From NCBI GenBank assembly GCA_902786615.1, contig CADADE010000043.1, positions 1 to 11,644 on the forward strand: a DNA stretch of 11,644 nt, read 5' to 3'. The translations under genes and the position numbers were made by a program. Source of the stretch: Oscillospiraceae bacterium. Lineage in GTDB: Bacteria; Bacillota_A; Clostridia; Oscillospirales; Oscillospiraceae. The notes beneath the pieces are model-generated. The model did no database searches. It was not told the DNA's origin and saw only the letters and a list, made by a program, of their open reading frames with translations. Positions within the stretch are counted from its first letter, which is position 1; the number at the start of each line of letters is the position of its first letter. Of the stretch, positions 461-11,644 are shown in pieces.

Positions 461-1524
461 TCAGGAGATTTCAACCAACACTTCCCAACGGCCGCTGCGC
501 TTGCCGCCCTCACGGCGGAGATAGCCTTTTTCCTGCAGATCCGTCATTCTGCGTTTTATTGTCCGTTCCGATTTACCAATAGCGGCAGCAAGCTCCTTTT
601 GCGTGATGGCGGGATTTGCTATCACGGTTTGCAGCACGGCCAGCTCTTCCAACGTGCAATCCAAAGTGCCATTTTGGCACTTTGATCTTCTCTGAAGTCC
701 ACATGGAGACAGCGATTCTTCAATTCATGCTGCGTGCCGAGGAGCAGGTTTTCAAAAAACATTTCGAGGAACTCGCTTGTAGCATGGATACCTTTTTGCA
801 GATTGTTGTAGTTGGCGCGGACAAGTGCGTTGCGAAAATACCAGGAGTTTGCCGCAAAAACGTCATTGTTCACGTGAAAACCGAAAGTCTTCAAGTATTT
901 CACGACAAACACCGCCGTTGCGCGTGTGTTGCCCTCACAGAAAGGATGGATCTGCCAGATCCCGGATGCAAACTTTGCCATATGGCGGATAGACTCCGGC
1001 ACAGAAATCTTTTCATAGGAGAACTGTTTTTCCTGCGAATAGTCATAATCCAGTGTGTCGCGGATGCTATCCCAGGAAGCGTATGTGACCGTATCGCCGC
1101 CGAGCACCCATTCATTTTTTGTGATGTTATAGGTGCGGAATTGTCCCGCGTGTTCAAAGACACCAGTAAACAAACGGCGGTGAATGCTCTGCAGCTCGGC
1201 CGGAGAAAACTGAAAGGTTTTCTCTCCTAACAGTTCGGTGATACGCGCGGAGACAATATCCGCCTCCATCGTTCCGGCTTCTACCGTTTTGCGGTTGGCC
1301 TGTTCTTTGTAGTAGCTTTGGATGCGCCGCTGCGCCCCGGCAATGTCAATGTCGCCTTCGATATGCGCCTTTGCGGTCTCCAACAAATACGGAGAGGTTT
1401 TCAGCCCATCCACAGCCTGAAGCCCGATGGCCGTCTGCCATGCCGCGCTCTTCTCGGCCCGGTCAGGCTCCCCCTGACGGATGTACTCGCTTAGTGCAAG
1501 CTGCCAGCTGTCCTGATTCGGCAT
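461..1524 (-). pseudogene. fic: Fic/Fido-domain protein with C-terminal winged helix, frameshifted
   Basis: Fic enzymes transfer AMP (sometimes other nucleotides) from a nucleotide donor onto target proteins. Frame 1 (1524-622, 300 aa) starts at an ATG with an AAGGGAG site upstream. It holds the catalytic loop HPFCEGNTR at residues 193-201, complete with its histidine, and the upstream substrate-flap region (GQFRTYNI, residues 127-134). An IEGD near residue 55 recalls the glutamate of Fic inhibitory helices, but the usual Ser/Thr is not obvious. After HVDFREDQSAK the frame runs into unrelated sequence. The neighbouring frame then continues as KCQNGTLDCTLEELAVL and a winged-helix DNA-binding domain ending at the TGA at 463-461. 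The two halves belong to one gene, broken near 670-690. The catalytic domain could still be made; the regulatory winged helix could not without frameshifting. The gene has its own promoter (1559-1587). Confidence 0.8.
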
Positions 1525-1558
1525 TTTCTCAGCTCCCTTCTCCGCTTACTATACAACT

Positions 1559-1587
1559 ATTTTACCATAAGCAGACCTGTACATCAA
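1559..1587 (-). promoter_or_regulatory. Promoter of the Fic gene
   Basis: On the minus strand, -35 TTGATG (1587-1582), a 17-base spacer and -10 TAAAAT (1564-1559) are preceded by TGG, which makes an extended -10. Transcription would start about 25-30 bases before the fic ATG at 1524. Spacing and orientation fit a housekeeping sigma factor. Confidence 0.6.
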
Positions 1588-1808
1588 GGATAACACCGTC
1601 GAGGAAAAGATCGAGAGCCAATAGCCAAAAAATTATATCAGCTCGGGTATAGTTTTGAAATTTGAAATAGTTTTTTCCCGAACGGGTATAAACAATGCTG
1701 TATTACTGTACCGATATAGCTGCTTTTTTAAATTTGCATATAGTAAGCTATCATCTCCTGCATAGAGCACCTATAACGTTTATAGCAAGTAACAATGCAA
1801 CACGAATC
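1588..1808. other. AT-rich non-coding stretch between fic and the plus-strand operon
   Basis: No convincing gene is seen. The stretch is much richer in A and T than its surroundings. It has a short CCCG-aa-CGGG dyad (about 1678-1687) and two copies of CGGGTATA (about 1643 and 1683). A short frame reading LYIKDNTVEEKIESQ ends at about 1622 and overlaps the fic promoter; it could be a remnant of another gene but is too short to name. Confidence 0.4.
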
Positions 1809-1840
1809 GGCCGCCCGGAAACAGGCGGCCTTTTCTGTTA
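1809..1840 (+). terminator. Rho-independent terminator without an obvious upstream gene
   Basis: GGCCGCC (1809-1815) and GGCGGCC (1824-1830) form a 7-bp GC stem with an 8-base loop, followed by TTTTCTGTTATT. It points in the plus direction. No intact plus-strand gene precedes it, so it may be the surviving end of a lost gene, or it may insulate the promoter just downstream. Confidence 0.7.
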
Positions 1841-1866
1841 TTCTGATAGATTACCGACTATCTTTA

Positions 1867-1875
1867 TGGTATACT
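1867..1875 (+). promoter_or_regulatory. Extended -10 promoter of the membrane protein / amidohydrolase / VanZ operon
   Basis: TATACT at 1870-1875 is directly preceded by TGG, a good extended -10. No good -35 is seen at 17 bases. It leaves a leader of about 100 bases before the ATG at 1983. Confidence 0.55.
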
Positions 1876-1892
1876 TATTGCAAGTCAACAGG

Positions 1893-1932
1893 CGGCACGG
1901 TAGAGGCACAGCAATGCCGCTGCTTCGTGCCG
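1893..1932 (+). promoter_or_regulatory. Structured 5' leader hairpin of the operon
   Basis: CGGCACG (1893-1899) pairs with CGTGCCG (1926-1932), a 7-bp stem. Smaller pairings are possible inside it (GGCA near 1905 with TGCC near 1915). It lies between the promoter and the AAGGAGGG site of the first gene. It could be a riboswitch or protein-binding leader, but I do not recognise a known class. Confidence 0.35.
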
Positions 1933-1982
1933 GGAGTTGAGCCGGGAAGGTTATCGACAGTCAGAGATAAGGAGGGACTGAG

Positions 1983-2504
1983 ATGTTTGTATTCTGGGGA
2001 GACGGTTCACAGCAGGCAATGGATCTGGTCAACGCGATCCGCGTGCGCAGTACGGAAAACTTCCGAAACTACGAGGTGATCTATGCGGGCCTGGCCCTGT
2101 ACGGCGTTCACTGGCTTTACGAAATCTGCAACGCCATCATCGGCCACGTTTTCGGGTATCCGCTGTGGTCGGTTTCTAATGAATCGACGACGTTCATTCT
2201 GCTGATCGGCGTCTGCTGGGAGCTGTCCATGATGTTCTCTCTGGCAGGCATTATTTCCTTCAAAATGCTGCCACAGGACCGGAGCACGCGCTTCTTCTCC
2301 AAAAACGGAAAGGGCGGCATCAGCTGCAAGCTGGCCGGAGCGCTGGAAATGGCGCTGCTGTTTGCGCTGTTTGAATCCTTCCTCGCCGGAACGAGCAACC
2401 ATTCCTTCATCTGGGTTTACAAATGGTGGGGTGTGCTGCCCGTATTCGTCACCACATATATACCTTTCTTCCTGGCCGCAAACTATGTGCCGGATATGAA
2501 GTGA
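1983..2504 (+). CDS. Four-helix integral membrane protein of unknown function
   Basis: A 173-aa protein whose ATG is preceded by TAAGGAGGG seven bases upstream. Four hydrophobic segments are visible at about residues 31-58, 69-94, 117-136 and 147-168. A basic, polar loop (about 97-117, QDRSTRFFSKNGKGG) lies between helices 2 and 3. Acidic residues sit within or beside helices (E47, E80, E122, E131), which could matter for transport or binding. There is no signal peptide, and the N-terminal 30 residues look soluble. It is the first gene of an operon, 62 bases ahead of the amidohydrolase. A linked role such as substrate uptake or product export is possible but not shown. I do not recognise the family. 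Confidence 0.75.
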   Translation: MFVFWGDGSQQAMDLVNAIRVRSTENFRNYEVIYAGLALYGVHWLYEICNAIIGHVFGYPLWSVSNESTTFILLIGVCWELSMMFSLAGIISFKMLPQDRSTRFFSKNGKGGISCKLAGALEMALLFALFESFLAGTSNHSFIWVYKWWGVLPVFVTTYIPFFLAANYVPDMK

Positions 2505-2566: not shown

Positions 2567-4082
2567 ATGACCGTCTATCACGGAGCGATCGTCACCGTCA
2601 ACGCAAATGACGATGTCTTTCAGTATCTGGTTGAACACAAGGGACGCATCGTGTATGTGGGCAACAGCCTGCCGAAAAAGTACCGCCGGGCGCCCGTCGT
2701 GGAGCTGAGCAGCCGGGCGCTCATTCCGCCCTTTGGCGACACGCACCAGCACTTTGCCTCCTTCTCCGCCTTCAATGCGGGGCTGAACGTGATGGAAGCC
2801 CGCTCCAACGCGGAGATCCTCGCCATGGTGGACCGCTTTGCCGCCGAATGTCCCTCCAAAACGCTGATCGCCTTCGGCGCGTCCCCCTACTCCGTGGCGG
2901 AGCGCTGCCTTGTGAGCCGCGAGGAACTGGACGCGGTCACCCATGGCAAGCCGCTGTTCATGGTGAAGTACGACGGTCACGCCTGCGTGGTAAACACCGC
3001 GCTGCTCAAAAAGCTTCCGCGCAGGACGAAGAAGCTGCGCGGATATCATGCGGACAGCGGCGAGATGAATCAGGAGGCGTTCTTCGCCGTTTCGGATTTC
3101 ATCACCAATTCCATCTCCCCGCTGGAGCTGCTGCGCGACATGCAGATGGCGGCGGACTTTGAAGCTGCACGCGGCATCGGCCTCATCCACACCGTCAGCG
3201 GCGTGGGCTTTGCCATGAATCTGGACATCTCCATGGAGACCTGGTTTGCCAGAAGTCTGCAGAACGGTCTGCAGCTTCGTGTCTTTCCCCAATCTATGGA
3301 TGTGGGGGTAGCCAATGCGCGCAGGCTCCCGCGCATCGGCGGCTGCTTTGCCTGTGCGCTTGACGGATGCTTCGGCTCGCAGGACGCTGCCATGAAGCGG
3401 CCCTACACCTCCGACCCCAACAACCGCGGCATTCTCTACTATACCGACGAGCAGGTCATCGACTTTTGCAAGGCGGCGAACCGGGCGGGTCTGCAGATCG
3501 AGATGCACGCCATCGGCGACCGGGCCTTTGACCAGGCTGCCCGTGCACTCAAGGCCGCGCTGGACGACTTCCCGCGCGAGGATCACCGCCACGGCATCAT
3601 CCACGCCTGCCTGCCCACGGAGTACGGCATGCAGATCTGCCGGCAGTACCGCATCCAGCTCCCCATGCAGATTGCCTTCGACAACTGCGCGGCTCAACCC
3701 GGTCCGCTCCTTTATGGAAAACGGCTGCGTGGTCTCCTTCGGCAGCGACGGGCCCTGCACCTCCCCGGACCCGATCGTCTGGCTCTATAAGGCTGTGAAC
3801 CACTCCAACCCCGCCGAGGCCGTCAGTATCCGGCAGACCCTGCGCATGGCGACCTATAACGGCTACTGGACGAGCTTCGATGAGCAGGAGCGCGGCTCGC
3901 TGGAAGCGGGCAAGATCGCGGACATGGTGATCCTCTCCGCCAATCCCTATGAGCTTCCGAGCGACCGGCTGCTGGACCTCAAAGTCGAGAAGCTGATCCT
4001 CGGCGGCAAAGACTATAAGCCTCAGCACCAGAGCATCCCGCTTGCGGTAATAAAGGGCATGCTCTCCCGGAAAAAGGCGTGA
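2567..4082 (+). pseudogene. YtcJ-type metal-dependent amidohydrolase, broken by an internal deletion
   Basis: The family comprises TIM-barrel hydrolases that use one or two metal ions to hydrolyse amide or similar bonds. The ATG follows GGGAGG at eight bases. In frame 1 (2567 to about 3685) the metal motif THQH is seen (H60 and H62), then EMHAIGDRA (H314) and IIHACL (H346), as expected for Amidohydro_3 proteins. At about 3686-3692 the homologous sequence jumps to another frame, reading RLNPVRSFMENGC, then FGSDGPCTSPDP with the catalytic aspartate, to the stop at 4082. The two halves total about 503 aa, against roughly 530-550 usual for the family, so about 20 or more residues are missing along with the frame. 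As it stands no active enzyme can be made, because the SD motif is lost from frame 1. It sits between two membrane-protein genes in one operon. The substrate cannot be read from the sequence. Confidence 0.8.
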
Positions 4083-5000: not shown

Positions 5001-5029
5001 TTGACAAGCGATCTTTGCTGTGGTATTTT
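5001..5029 (+). promoter_or_regulatory. Promoter of the stand-alone ncRNA
   Basis: A perfect -35 TTGACA (5001-5006), a 17-base spacer and -10 TATTTT (5024-5029) with TGG in front. A second AT-rich hexamer TATAAT at 5029-5034 is 22 bases from the -35, too far to be the usual partner. Transcription should begin near 5036. Confidence 0.75.
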
Positions 5030-5035
5030 ATAATA

Positions 5036-5266
5036 TTTCCTTGTCGAATCCTGTCTCTCAGCCTCGAAGGAAGGCGAGACCAAGGTCAGGGAGAACAACT
5101 GAATAACGTTATCCGACAGGCCTGTAAAGACTTGTCGAAGAATACTCCGGTACGAGCCTGAAAAGGCTTACCGATGTATTGTAGCAGCGAAACCGTTACA
5201 TATCAATACGGTCCGCGGGAGGCCATTTACTCCCGCTGGATTCGTATTGATATGTAACGGTTTTTT
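5036..5266 (+). ncRNA. Structured ~230-nt non-coding RNA with its own promoter and terminator
   Basis: No open frame fits, but the sequence is full of paired arms. The 5' domain has CCTTG (5039-5043) with CAAGG (5081-5085), GTCTC (5053-5057) with GAGAC (5076-5080), and GCCT (5061-5064) with AGGC (5072-5075), with the 3' arms contiguous. The middle has CGACA (5114-5118) with TGTCG (5133-5137). A long hairpin then stacks AATAC (5141-5145) with GTATT (5176-5180), CGGTA (5148-5152) with TACCG (5169-5173) and AGCCT (5155-5159) with AGGCT (5164-5168) on a GAAA tetraloop (5160-5163). The 3' end is a 20-bp terminator-like stem. This is RNA-gene architecture, perhaps one of the large ornate Firmicutes RNAs (raiA-like is one candidate to test). 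I cannot identify the class with certainty. It could instead be a long attenuator for the downstream rep region. Confidence 0.7.
5190..5266 (+). terminator. Long-stem terminator of the ncRNA
   Basis: A perfect 20-bp inverted repeat (5191-5210 with 5243-5262, arm beginning AACCGTTACA) is followed by a T run (5261-5266). Its apex carries a second stem, GCGGGAG (5215-5221) with CTCCCGC (5230-5236). The stem is far longer than a normal terminator needs, so it may also protect the RNA 3' end or serve another role. Confidence 0.75.
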
Positions 5267-5294
5267 GAATAGGAGGGAAAAAAGAAAGGCAAAA

Positions 5295-5441
5295 AGAACA
5301 ACTGAATGACCGGCTGGATGGTTATTACTCACCCCGGCGAAGTGTGCCAGGACCTCACGAAAAGGAGCGAGCATGCCAAGGGGTGTTGGCAACGACCGCG
5401 GTGAAAGAGTCCGGGGCGGAACGCCATCCAGATCAAACGGC
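5295..5441 (+). repeat. Structured 147-nt repeat, copy 1
   Basis: Nearly identical (142 of 147 bases) to 5722-5868. The fold on the plus strand has closing stem CTGGATGG (5314-5321) with CCATCCAG (5424-5431) and an outer CCG (5310-5312) with CGG (5438-5440). Inside are CCCCGG (5332-5337) with CCGGGG (5411-5416), and hairpin TGCCAA (5374-5379) with TTGGCA (5386-5391). The CTC/GAG hairpin (5354-5367) is weaker than in copy 2. No convincing protein is encoded in either direction. Probably part of an RNA in the leader of the rep region. Confidence 0.7.
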
Positions 5442-5464
5442 GCAACAACACAAAGGGACAGAGG

Positions 5465-5719
5465 ATGAAAAAATCTGGAGCAGACCGTCATGTTTTGCCG
5501 TTCCCGTGGCTTTATTATGGGAGCATTTTTGAAAACACTCAGAAGCCGGATACCTCAAAACACTCAGCAGCTAAAATGTTCACAAAAAATTCACAAAATA
5601 AACCGGACGTTTTGGCCGTTTCCGTGAGCTACCTATGGAGGGATTTTTACTATGAAGAGCCTCAAAGCTTAATAATTTGCTTTCATCTGGGAGAAACCGT
5701 ATGCGGAATCCCGGTTTGA
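5465..5719 (+). CDS. Possible 84-aa small protein between the two repeats
   Basis: A frame from ATG 5465 to TGA 5717-5719 fills the gap between the repeat copies; GGG at 5454-5456 is a weak ribosome binding site. The product has an aromatic-rich half (PFPWLYYGSIFEN), a polar middle and a second similar aromatic segment (SYLWRDFYYEEPQ). The two segments match a loose DNA repeat (about 5490-5530 and 5610-5650), so the coding appearance could be a by-product. A shorter TTG frame (from about 5529) competes in another phase. No family recognised; low confidence. Confidence 0.22.
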   Translation: MKKSGADRHVLPFPWLYYGSIFENTQKPDTSKHSAAKMFTKNSQNKPDVLAVSVSYLWRDFYYEEPQSLIICFHLGETVCGIPV

Positions 5720-5721
5720 AT

Positions 5722-5868
5722 AGAACAACTGAATGATCGGCTGGATGGTTATTACTCATCCCGGCGAAGTGTGCCAGGACCTCCTGAAAAGGAGCGAGCA
5801 TGCTAAGGGGTGTTGGCAACGACCGCGGTGAAAGAGTCCGGGGCGGAACGCCATCCAGATCAAACGGC
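5722..5868 (+). repeat. Structured 147-nt repeat, copy 2
   Basis: Second copy, offset exactly 427 bases from the first, with differences at 5737, 5759, 5784, 5785 and 5804. The three C-to-T changes (5737, 5759, 5804) each turn a predicted C-G pair into a U-G pair, so the fold is kept on the plus strand. The other two changes create a perfect CTCCT / AGGAG stem with a GAAA loop (5781-5794). It ends about 75 bases before the rep gene, so it is probably in the rep 5' leader. Confidence 0.7.
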
Positions 5869-5905
5869 ACACAAACCATGACAGGCATTGCCTGACTAAA
5901 CACAG

Positions 5906-5929
5906 GGCAGGAGTCTGGGCGCTCCTGCC
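5906..5929 (+). promoter_or_regulatory. Hairpin just before the rep ribosome binding site
   Basis: GGCAGGAG (5906-5913) pairs perfectly with CTCCTGCC (5922-5929) around an 8-base loop. The rep AAAGGAGG site begins seven bases later (5936). There is no T run, so it is not a normal terminator. The AGGAG in its 5' arm resembles a ribosome binding site, so competition or translational control is possible. Confidence 0.4.
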
Positions 5930-5944
5930 GCGGTCAAAGGAGGA

Positions 5945-7085
5945 TTGATCAAAATCAAGAAAACGGAGCTCAAAGACTTCTATGGCATGATGTACCCGGA
6001 CTATCCGGACATCGTAACCGTTCCCCAGCTGCAAAAGATGCTGGGGATCAGCCGGGGGCTGGCCTACAAGCTGGTCCGCGAAAACGAGATCCACGGCATC
6101 AAAATCGGCAATGCCCTGCGGGTGCCGAAGGTAAACGTCATCAACTATGTCATTGTGGATGCCGACACTTTGCTCTCGACTCCGCTGGAGAAGACCCTTT
6201 TCATCGTAGAGGGCCTAATCCCGCAGGGGGTGACGCTGCTGGGCGGGTCCAGCAAGATCGGCAAAAGCTGGCTGATGCTCCAGCTCGGGCTGCAGGTTGC
6301 GCGGGGACTCCCGCTCTGGGGACTGAAAACAACCTGCTGCGACGTGCTGTACCTGAGTCTGGAGGACACCATGAGCCGTCTGCAGAACCGGCTCTATCGC
6401 CTGACCGACGAGGCACCGCCCGGTCTCCGCTTTGCGACTGTCTGCGGAAAGTTGGGCAGCGGGCTGGAGGAACAGATCACCCAGGCCCTGTGCGATTACC
6501 CGGCGACAAAGCTTGTCATCATCGACACGCTGCAGAAGGCGCGGGACTCCCGCAGCGCGGCGGGCAAGACGGGTCTCTATTCCGCCGACTACGACGACAT
6601 GTCCGCCCTCAAGCAGATCGCAGACCGCCAACCAGCTTTCGGGCAGTACCGGTATCACGGGCGCGGCCGACACCAGCATGGTGCTGCTGCGGCAGCGCGG
6701 CGCCGATACCGCGACGCTCCTGGCCACCGGGCGCGATATCGACTATCAGCGCCTCACGCTCCGCTTTGAAAACCTGAGCTGGCAGCTGGTGGAGCGCACG
6801 GAGAGTACAGAGCTCCAGCGGGAGCAGATCCCGTCGGTTTTATTCCGGCTGGTCGCGTTTTTGAGGCAGTACACGGAGTGGACAGGCACCGCGACGGAGC
6901 TGCTGAGCGAGCTGGGCGAAAAGGAGACCCCGAGCAACGTCATCACCAAGTATCTGGGGCGCTACGCAAACGATGTGCTGCGCCCCGCCGGCATCACTTA
7001 CCGCACCAGGCGCACAGGTCAAAGCCGCCTGCTGTGCTTCACCCATGACGGCCATGACAGCAATGACGGCAAATCCGGGATATAG
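5945..7085 (+). pseudogene. Excisionase-like HTH fused to RepA/AAA_25 ATPase, frameshifted
   Basis: Probable replication ATPase of the element. Frame 1 begins at TTG 5945, tight against AAAGGAGG; no ATG lies near, so the start is uncertain. Residues about 22-68 (VTVPQLQKMLGISRGLAYKL) form an excisionase/MerR-type HTH. From residue 72 follows an AAA_25 (RepA/KaiC-like) domain with Walker A GGSSKIGKS (100-108), YLSLED (136-141) and Walker B KLVIIDTL (189-196). Near 6629-6632 homology jumps to another frame, reading LSGSTGITGAADTSMVL, and runs to the stop at 7085. The stretch usually found there, with the HH-(T/L)RK motif, is missing: about 20-25 residues plus the frame. An in-frame GTG at 6155 could start the ATPase alone. 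The 3' end carries opposed 9-bp repeats, and the next gene follows after 52 bases. The product as written should be inactive. Confidence 0.75.
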
Positions 7086-11498: not shown

Positions 11499-11513
11499 CA
11501 TCCTCTAAAAGTA

Positions 11514-11548
11514 CAAAAAATCGCCGATTTATAAGTAAAATCGGCGAT
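11514..11548 (-). terminator. Terminator of tRNA-Ser
   Basis: Arms 11520-11530 (ATCGCCGATTT) and 11538-11548 (AAATCGGCGAT) form an 11-bp perfect stem with a 7-base loop. On the minus strand it is followed by a run of T's (complement of 11515-11520). It lies directly after the tRNA 3' end. Confidence 0.88.
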
Positions 11549-11551
11549 AAG

Positions 11552-11642
11552 TGGCGGACAGGGTGGGATTCGAACCCACGAGCCTCTTGCGAGACTACCT
11601 GATTTCGAGTCAGGGCCGTTATGACCACTTCGATACCTGTCC
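11552..11642 (-). tRNA. tRNA-Ser (anticodon CGA), reading UCG codons
   Basis: On the minus strand the acceptor stem GGACAGG (from 11642) pairs with CCTGTCC. The anticodon arm is CCTGA-CTCGAAA-TCAGG with anticodon CGA. A long variable arm (TCTCGCAAGAGGC region) marks a class II tRNA, and the T arm is GTGGG-TTCGAAT-CCCAC. CCA is encoded at 11554-11552; the body without CCA ends at 11555. It is intact. Serine tRNA genes are common integration targets, and the integrase lies on its 3' side, the usual arrangement for tRNA-targeting elements. Confidence 0.97.
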
Positions 11643-11644
11643 AT

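Follow-up and report, generated by a model that had tools for sequence, protein, structure and literature searches.

A plus-strand structured RNA family with a boxA-like start in mobile-element operon leaders of Clostridia

The leaders of mobile-element operons in Clostridia contain, on the plus strand, a family of structured RNAs that matches nothing in the Rfam release searched. Two of its members stand in tandem before a replication gene in the window, which here means the whole stretch of 11,644 nucleotides analysed, from an Oscillospiraceae bacterium. The best explanation, to which we give about an even chance, is that the RNA is a cis-acting boxA/Nus-type antitermination signal heading these operons.

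In the window, a tRNA-Ser adjoins an integrative mobilizable element that encodes a Rep protein (HTH_17 and AAA_25), a NikA-like protein, a MobA-type relaxase, a ParB-like protein and a tyrosine integrase. The RNA occupies the leader of this element's AAA_25 replication gene, where an earlier note on this DNA had placed it (Table 1). The rep gene (5945-7085) and an amidohydrolase gene (2567-4082) each seem to be split over two frames, and thus both may be broken in this assembly. The inverted repeat between the promoter and copy 1 is absent from the list given by a scan for short-loop terminators, and its T run was read by eye. The RNA covariance model R1, described below, has no match in the structured leader part at 5085-5184. 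No repeats of at least 12 nt were found between the right end (11501-11644) and the remainder of the window. Searches with blastn returned no match of the window element to plasmids and phages and none of the 1-kb leader to plasmids; a phage match of 29 nt falls within the spacer, and tblastn gave weak matches on the minus strand. Some pattern scans of viral contigs were empty, and two pattern matches in viral contigs were dropped as unrelated, being read as coding DNA.

Table 1. Features of the leader and the start of rep in the window
Feature	Position	Strand	Basis and remarks
Candidate sigma-70 promoter, TTGACA-17-TATTTT	5001..5029	+	By eye; placement as in the promoter-leader-hairpin-RNA order of L093, L096, L116, L119 and L124
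Structured leader part with the first AGAACAACTGAATAA box	5085..5184	+	Fold z -4.23; box common to both copies
Perfect 21-bp inverted repeat with a 32-nt loop and six T at its end, terminator-like; promoter upstream, copy 1 downstream	5190..5266	+	
RNA copy 1	5295..5441	+	Model match 5301-5443; R1 E 3.9e-6; R2 93.0 bits (copy 1 in R2 training set)
Spacer resembling the L017 leader upstream of the single RNA copy of L017	5442..5721	+	229 nt at 84% plus further partial repeats
RNA copy 2	5722..5868	+	Model match 5728-5870; R1 E 1.2e-5; R2 86.7 bits (copy 2 in R2 training set)
GC-rich hairpin GGCAGGAG/CTCCTGCC without T run, between copy 2 and the ribosome-binding site	5906..5929	+	By eye
Ribosome-binding site AAAGGAGG and TTG start codon of rep	5936..5947	+	By eye
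Start of rep (HTH_17 + AAA_25)	5945..6769	+	Frame seemingly broken; second frame 6432-7085

The fold comprises P1 (CCG/CGG), P2, a three-way junction with J2/3 (AUAUG), a P3 arm, P4 and J4/2 (AGGAACG). In the second type, P3 consists of an outer helix (for instance CUCCCC/GGGGAG or GUUUUUC/GAAAAAC), an internal loop and then an inner helix, for example GUA-x-CGC/GCGUAC. Covariation among homologues, the lack of which the earlier note had named as counter-evidence, strongly supports its proposal of a plus-strand RNA kept by structure. In alignment A2, 95.0% of the pair cells are paired and both sides have changed in 9 of 27 pairs; in A4 (MAFFT, 25 sequences) the values are 92.5% and 22 of 29 pairs. 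Alignment A5 (92 distinct relatives) has 92.9% standard pairs, compared to at most 41.8% in slid registers, with both sides changed in 25 of 29 pairs; it was fitted to the model, and A4 is in agreement with it. Over all alignments, slid registers reach at most 44.2% paired. Among 500 shuffles of A5, 13 reached 25 doubly changed pairs, and none reached the 457 double-change cells (mean 126.8). For P4, the register 68-70 with 86-88 took the place of a first one, 69-72 with 87-90, whose columns 70/89 failed in 11 of 20.

Further analysis of the helices in 81 nonredundant members revealed 163 GU/UG cells against 48 AC/CA cells; as the former outnumber the latter, it is the sense strand that folds, and the plus-strand call holds. 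A K-turn-like motif (3-nt gap, GA facing GA; NNN-GA/GA) comes after the inner helix of P3 in 59 of the 71 scorable members and is absent from 12, the other 10 of 81 not being scorable; in L021, L023, L125 and L141 it lacks the second helix. GNRA caps, tried as an RNA signature, were dropped with only 6 occurrences in 71.

The two window copies are the duplication of 147 nt that had been described, 5295-5441 against 5722-5868, with exactly five differing positions: 5310/5737, 5332/5759, 5358/5785 and 5377/5804 (all C to T) and 5357/5784 (A to C). The repeat unit reaches 158 nt at 94% identity. Three of the changes had been read as C-G pairs turned into U-G; this stands for 5310, which pairs with G5440, and for 5332, which pairs with G5383, but the family model leaves 5377 unpaired, which makes the conversions two and not three. 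Positions 5357 and 5358 lie in a variable hairpin, and copy 2 can indeed form the GAAA-capped stem suggested for it (CUCCU-GAAA-AGGAG, by eye). Single-sequence fold z values for copies 1 and 2 are -0.48 and -2.34 on the plus strand and -1.71 and -1.31 on the minus strand, which is weak and not decisive evidence; the structure is proven by the homologues, and the five copy differences alone would fall short. A coding role was rejected, with one frame open across copy 1 and stopped in copy 2, and with stops and indels that break the short frames in L021 and L023.

The duplication looks local to the window. The leaders L017-L020, whose RNA is 90-98% identical to that of the window, each carry a single RNA copy ahead of rep. 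The stretch shared with the 240-nt upstream part of the window leader (5041-5280) is 240 nt in L018, 214 nt in L019 and 181 nt in L020, and L017 has 229 nt of the spacer part at 84% identity. From the single-copy leaders of L018-L020 and the spacer-like leader of L017 it follows that both leader variants are present in the window, each accompanied by an RNA, and leader recombination may have been the origin of the duplication.

No Rfam 15 match overlapped the RNA in 27 sources scanned at an E-value threshold of 1 or 5, a covariance search that the earlier note had advised. A sub-threshold TD-1 match in L128 (2596-2717, minus strand, E 0.1) lies away from the RNA. A literature search of titles and abstract starts, together with a main-text term search of PMC8040213, PMC11109978, PMC8632094 and PMC2864571, found no description of the RNA family; an unnamed motif in the supplements could still be the same RNA.

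A scan for Rep in genome contigs gave 263 relatives, the best 80 of which were taken further, and a recognisable relative of the RNA was present in the leaders of distant Reps. Model R1 was built from 20 of these distant-Rep leader sequences with the window subtype left out, and in the window it matched both copies and nothing else. Its search covered 85 sources, which are Rep relatives and the window (84 of 92 loci; L001, L002 and L005-L010 left out). At E up to 1, 36 of them were hit, with 40 matches in total, all on the rep strand and including the 20 training sequences. Over 21 whole genomes at the same threshold, 19 were matched, one of them with 10 matches. Model R2, which has an extra outer helix, was built from 25 sequences including the window copies, and also finds first-type members outside its training set, such as those of L029 and L038. 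It was searched against 95 sources, mostly picked for earlier matches, with L060 giving none; the 95 matches were reduced to 81 members at a 95% cut, and one without flanks was set aside to leave 80 for the box analyses.

Genome tallies were made over groups centred on G001 or G017, with the centre counted and with filters that lose weak matches. R1 (E up to 1e-3) was found in at least 30 of 200 genomes, and R2 (E up to 1e-4) in at least 36 of 200 genomes of one family, with up to 10 copies per genome; wider tallies gave at least 22 of 391 genomes of the class and at least 10 of 398 of the phylum. Lachnospiraceae bacterium A2 and Sporofaciens musculi are among the cultured carriers. Several variants were seen among the members. 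Insertions of ~100 nt interrupt the RNA in L015 (610-846) and L027 (1698-1909), the latter hairpin-rich and in the P3 arm. L044 (3340-3550) matches the RNA model weakly twice in tandem (E 0.0039 and 0.065), and L149, L150, L153 and L163 form a low-GC subfamily.

The first downstream gene was scanned for 66 of the 70 genes found for the 81 loci (window copy 1, L114, L179 and L183 left out). The leading named families are HTH_17 (16), Cys_rich_VLP (8), NikA-like (6) and AAA_25 (4), to which NCBIfam adds excisionase (9) and ICEBs1 Xis (5); recombinase, phage integrase, DUF3847 and GntR occur once each. The distance from the RNA end to the start codon ranges from 20 to 429 nt at 70 loci, and is 20-45 nt in 24 of them. 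In Vescimonas fastidiosa, the RNA (16062-16220 of L113) precedes genes for DeoR, DUF3847, a MobQ relaxase, CHC2, VapE and conjugation proteins. A separate motif, TACATAGC, recurs immediately before rep in L013, L021-L023, L027-L031, L049, L050, L063 and L064, loci without the RNA among them, often with a hairpin and the rep ribosome-binding site after it.

The RNA start in 80 members has the consensus UGnACCUUGA(A/C)A followed by ACUGAAU. Host 16S leaders carry ACCUUGAAAAUUGAA, ACCUUGACAGCUGAA, UCUUUGAAAACUGAA or similar sequences 78 to 308 nt upstream of 16S, a box that we take to be boxA. The comparison used 14 genomes with a 16S leader; in one set of 20 genomes, 10 showed no 16S start. A 15-position box pattern occurs with no mismatch in 7 of the 14 host leaders, with at most one in 11 and with at most two in 13, G371 being without it. 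The corresponding shares are 0, 0.2 and 4.8% for shuffled leaders and 0.6, 1.1 and 3.9% for 1274 random segments. With at most two mismatches, the pattern sits at offset -9 in 47 of the 80 RNA members, and no other offset between -60 and +39 has it in more than 1 member; the other 33 members exceed two mismatches at -9. L099 and L021 are examples of boxA-type members. When members are scored with a matrix derived from 13 leaders, the best match falls at -9 in 61 of the 80; 47 matches, all at -9, exceed the 99% mononucleotide-shuffle cut-off, against 0 in the downstream control. Since the pattern was written after both sets had been seen, box match and matrix are partly circular, and it is safer to rely on the fixed offset and the shuffled leaders. 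At the box site, the window copies read AAAAGAACAACTGAA and AATAGAACAACTGAA, with 5 and 4 mismatches; their subtype has AGAACAACUGAA in place of the boxA core and keeps the fold. The leaders of L185 (~1500-2000, minus strand) and L187 (~1500-1900) have an exact CTTTGAAAACTGAATA start and a large fold-like sequence of another kind (GGTGAGAATCCCGGAGGTGAAATTCCTGTGG in L187 and a relative of it in L185, with a similar one before rep in L064), and may represent a second class of leader RNA headed by boxA.

Two arrangements of promoter and RNA were recognised. Readable promoters lie directly upstream of the RNA in L120, L123, L126, L132, L135, L138 and L139; in L093, L096, L116, L119 and L124 the promoter lies ~250 nt before the RNA and a terminator-like hairpin comes in between, and the window has this second type of layout (promoter 5001-5029, hairpin 5190-5266, then RNA). 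A conserved leader stretch, CGACTTTGAATTTCAAAGCC..TTACAT, is found upstream of the RNA in L093, L096, L097 and L116, with a long-stem terminator-like hairpin after it in L093, L096 and L116. Promoters called by an automatic scan were not biased to the sense strand (sense promoter within 100 nt in 14 of 80). Terminator-like hairpins upstream of the RNA number 24 of 79 on the sense strand against 6 of 79 on the antisense strand. Intrinsic terminators are not enriched downstream, either within 400 nt (8/79 sense, 12/79 antisense) or within 3 kb (14/51 sense, 20/51 antisense). A strong terminator separates the RNA from rep in 5 of 20 Rep-class rows (L027, L029, L031, L033 and L041), and in L149, L150 and L153 the next gene (HTH_3 or GntR) has its own promoter downstream of the RNA.

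Nus-factor antitermination in cis best accounts for a boxA-like start at a set distance from a conserved nascent-RNA fold, with unrelated mobile-element genes downstream. The nascent RNA would recruit NusB-S10 and other Nus factors via boxA to its own polymerase, with the fold stabilising or specifying the Nus complex; the polymerase would then transcribe the operon in cis while resisting termination, which may be mostly of the Rho-dependent kind, as it is in rRNA operons. Fold, sense strand, position and box resemblance were computed; recruitment of NusB-S10 and resistance to termination we infer. The covariation, the finding of both copies by R1, the sense strand, the mobile-element genes downstream, the boxA statistics, the antiterminator precedents and the terminator before rep in five loci all favour antitermination. 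Against it stand the window copies without a boxA core, the 33 of 80 members with more than two mismatches, the lack of enrichment of downstream intrinsic terminators and of sense bias in promoters, the upstream terminator-like hairpins, one of which the window RNA lies behind, and the own next-gene promoters of the three loci named above.

Comparison with boxA antitermination of rRNA operons (NusB-S10) shows that 13 of the 14 host genomes have, upstream of 16S, a box which the 15-nt start resembles; unlike here, the rRNA leaders as far as read have the box without this fold, and in our family it heads mobile-element operons. The canT RNA of Tn916 is described as a processive antiterminator, orientation-specific and acting in cis on transfer genes (PMC11658703, available text); by description only, both are element-borne RNAs, but canT is given as 452 nt long and boxA is mentioned 0 times in that text. 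In pLS20, the conAn2 RNA at the head of a Gram-positive conjugation operon likewise antiterminates, and conAn needs a protein partner, according to the available part of PMC8955417, which sets it apart. A hairpin-T7 terminator lies right before the first gene of the pLS20 operon (by eye), as in L027 and its kin; R1 and R2 at E up to 10 found no match, and thus no homologue, in 50,000 of 65,774 pLS20 bases, including the leader at 1968-2564. RNA-based antitermination is also stated for put of HK022 and EAR of the Bacillus eps operon (portions of PMC11658703 and PMC8955417), with which the sequence comparison extends as far as the Rfam scan.

A riboswitch-like ligand-sensing or translational leader would use its three-way junction as the binding site for a small molecule or ion, and would control the operon by an attenuator hairpin or by the accessibility of the ribosome-binding site. 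Such a leader agrees with the conserved junction, the K-turn-like arm and the terminator, or CCUCC-bearing hairpin before the ribosome-binding site (by eye), of some leaders. With 20-45 nt between RNA end and start codon, however, 24 of 70 loci leave little room for a switch, a general expression platform was not seen, the downstream genes are too varied for a single metabolic theme and the boxA-like start is left unexplained, which makes this reading unlikely. The NNN-GA/GA motif in 59 of 71 scorable members also suits a protein-binding leader, on whose K-turn-like arm a host or element protein would repress or stabilise the mRNA in feedback, or which boxA/Nus binding would repress as in E. 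coli suhB, for which boxA-mediated repression is reported in the accessible part of PMC5725501. Four loci lack the second helix of the motif, and autoregulation by one element protein is unlikely because the first genes differ widely; we consider this doubtful.

A fold on the same strand alone cannot tell RNA from DNA, and a single-stranded DNA structure on the transferred strand (a single-strand origin, an entry site for primase or RNA polymerase, or part of oriT) would fit the many members near mobilization or replication genes and the oriT-like CCCC repeat ~100 nt from the RNA in L093 and L096 (by eye). The frequent G-U pairs (163 cells), the readable promoters right upstream in the seven loci listed, the boxA-like start and the position ahead of excisionase-like, integrase and regulator genes render it improbable. 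Most improbable is the copy-control or origin RNA of Rep that the earlier note had envisaged from its place before rep, which holds in the window and in the Rep loci: R1 matched 36 of the 85 sources, which are Rep relatives and the window, and the same RNA also stands before genes other than rep (excisionase-like HTH_17, NikA-like, Cys_rich_VLP, recombinase and regulator genes), so that a role in copy control or as a replication origin is not supported.

Under the antitermination reading, the elements of Clostridia may share a portable module in which the host rRNA boxA is fused to a dedicated three-way-junction RNA, and which would send a termination-resistant polymerase over excision, replication and transfer operons. 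It would be a new class of RNA antiterminator licensing horizontal transfer, with the window holding a boxA-less subtype duplicated by rep; we regard this larger picture as possible, at rather less than an even chance. Present in at least 36 of 200 genomes of one family, the RNA would be a shared control point of gene transfer in gut-type Clostridia. Should the boxA reading be true, mobile elements borrow the rRNA transcription machinery of their hosts for the expression of transfer genes.
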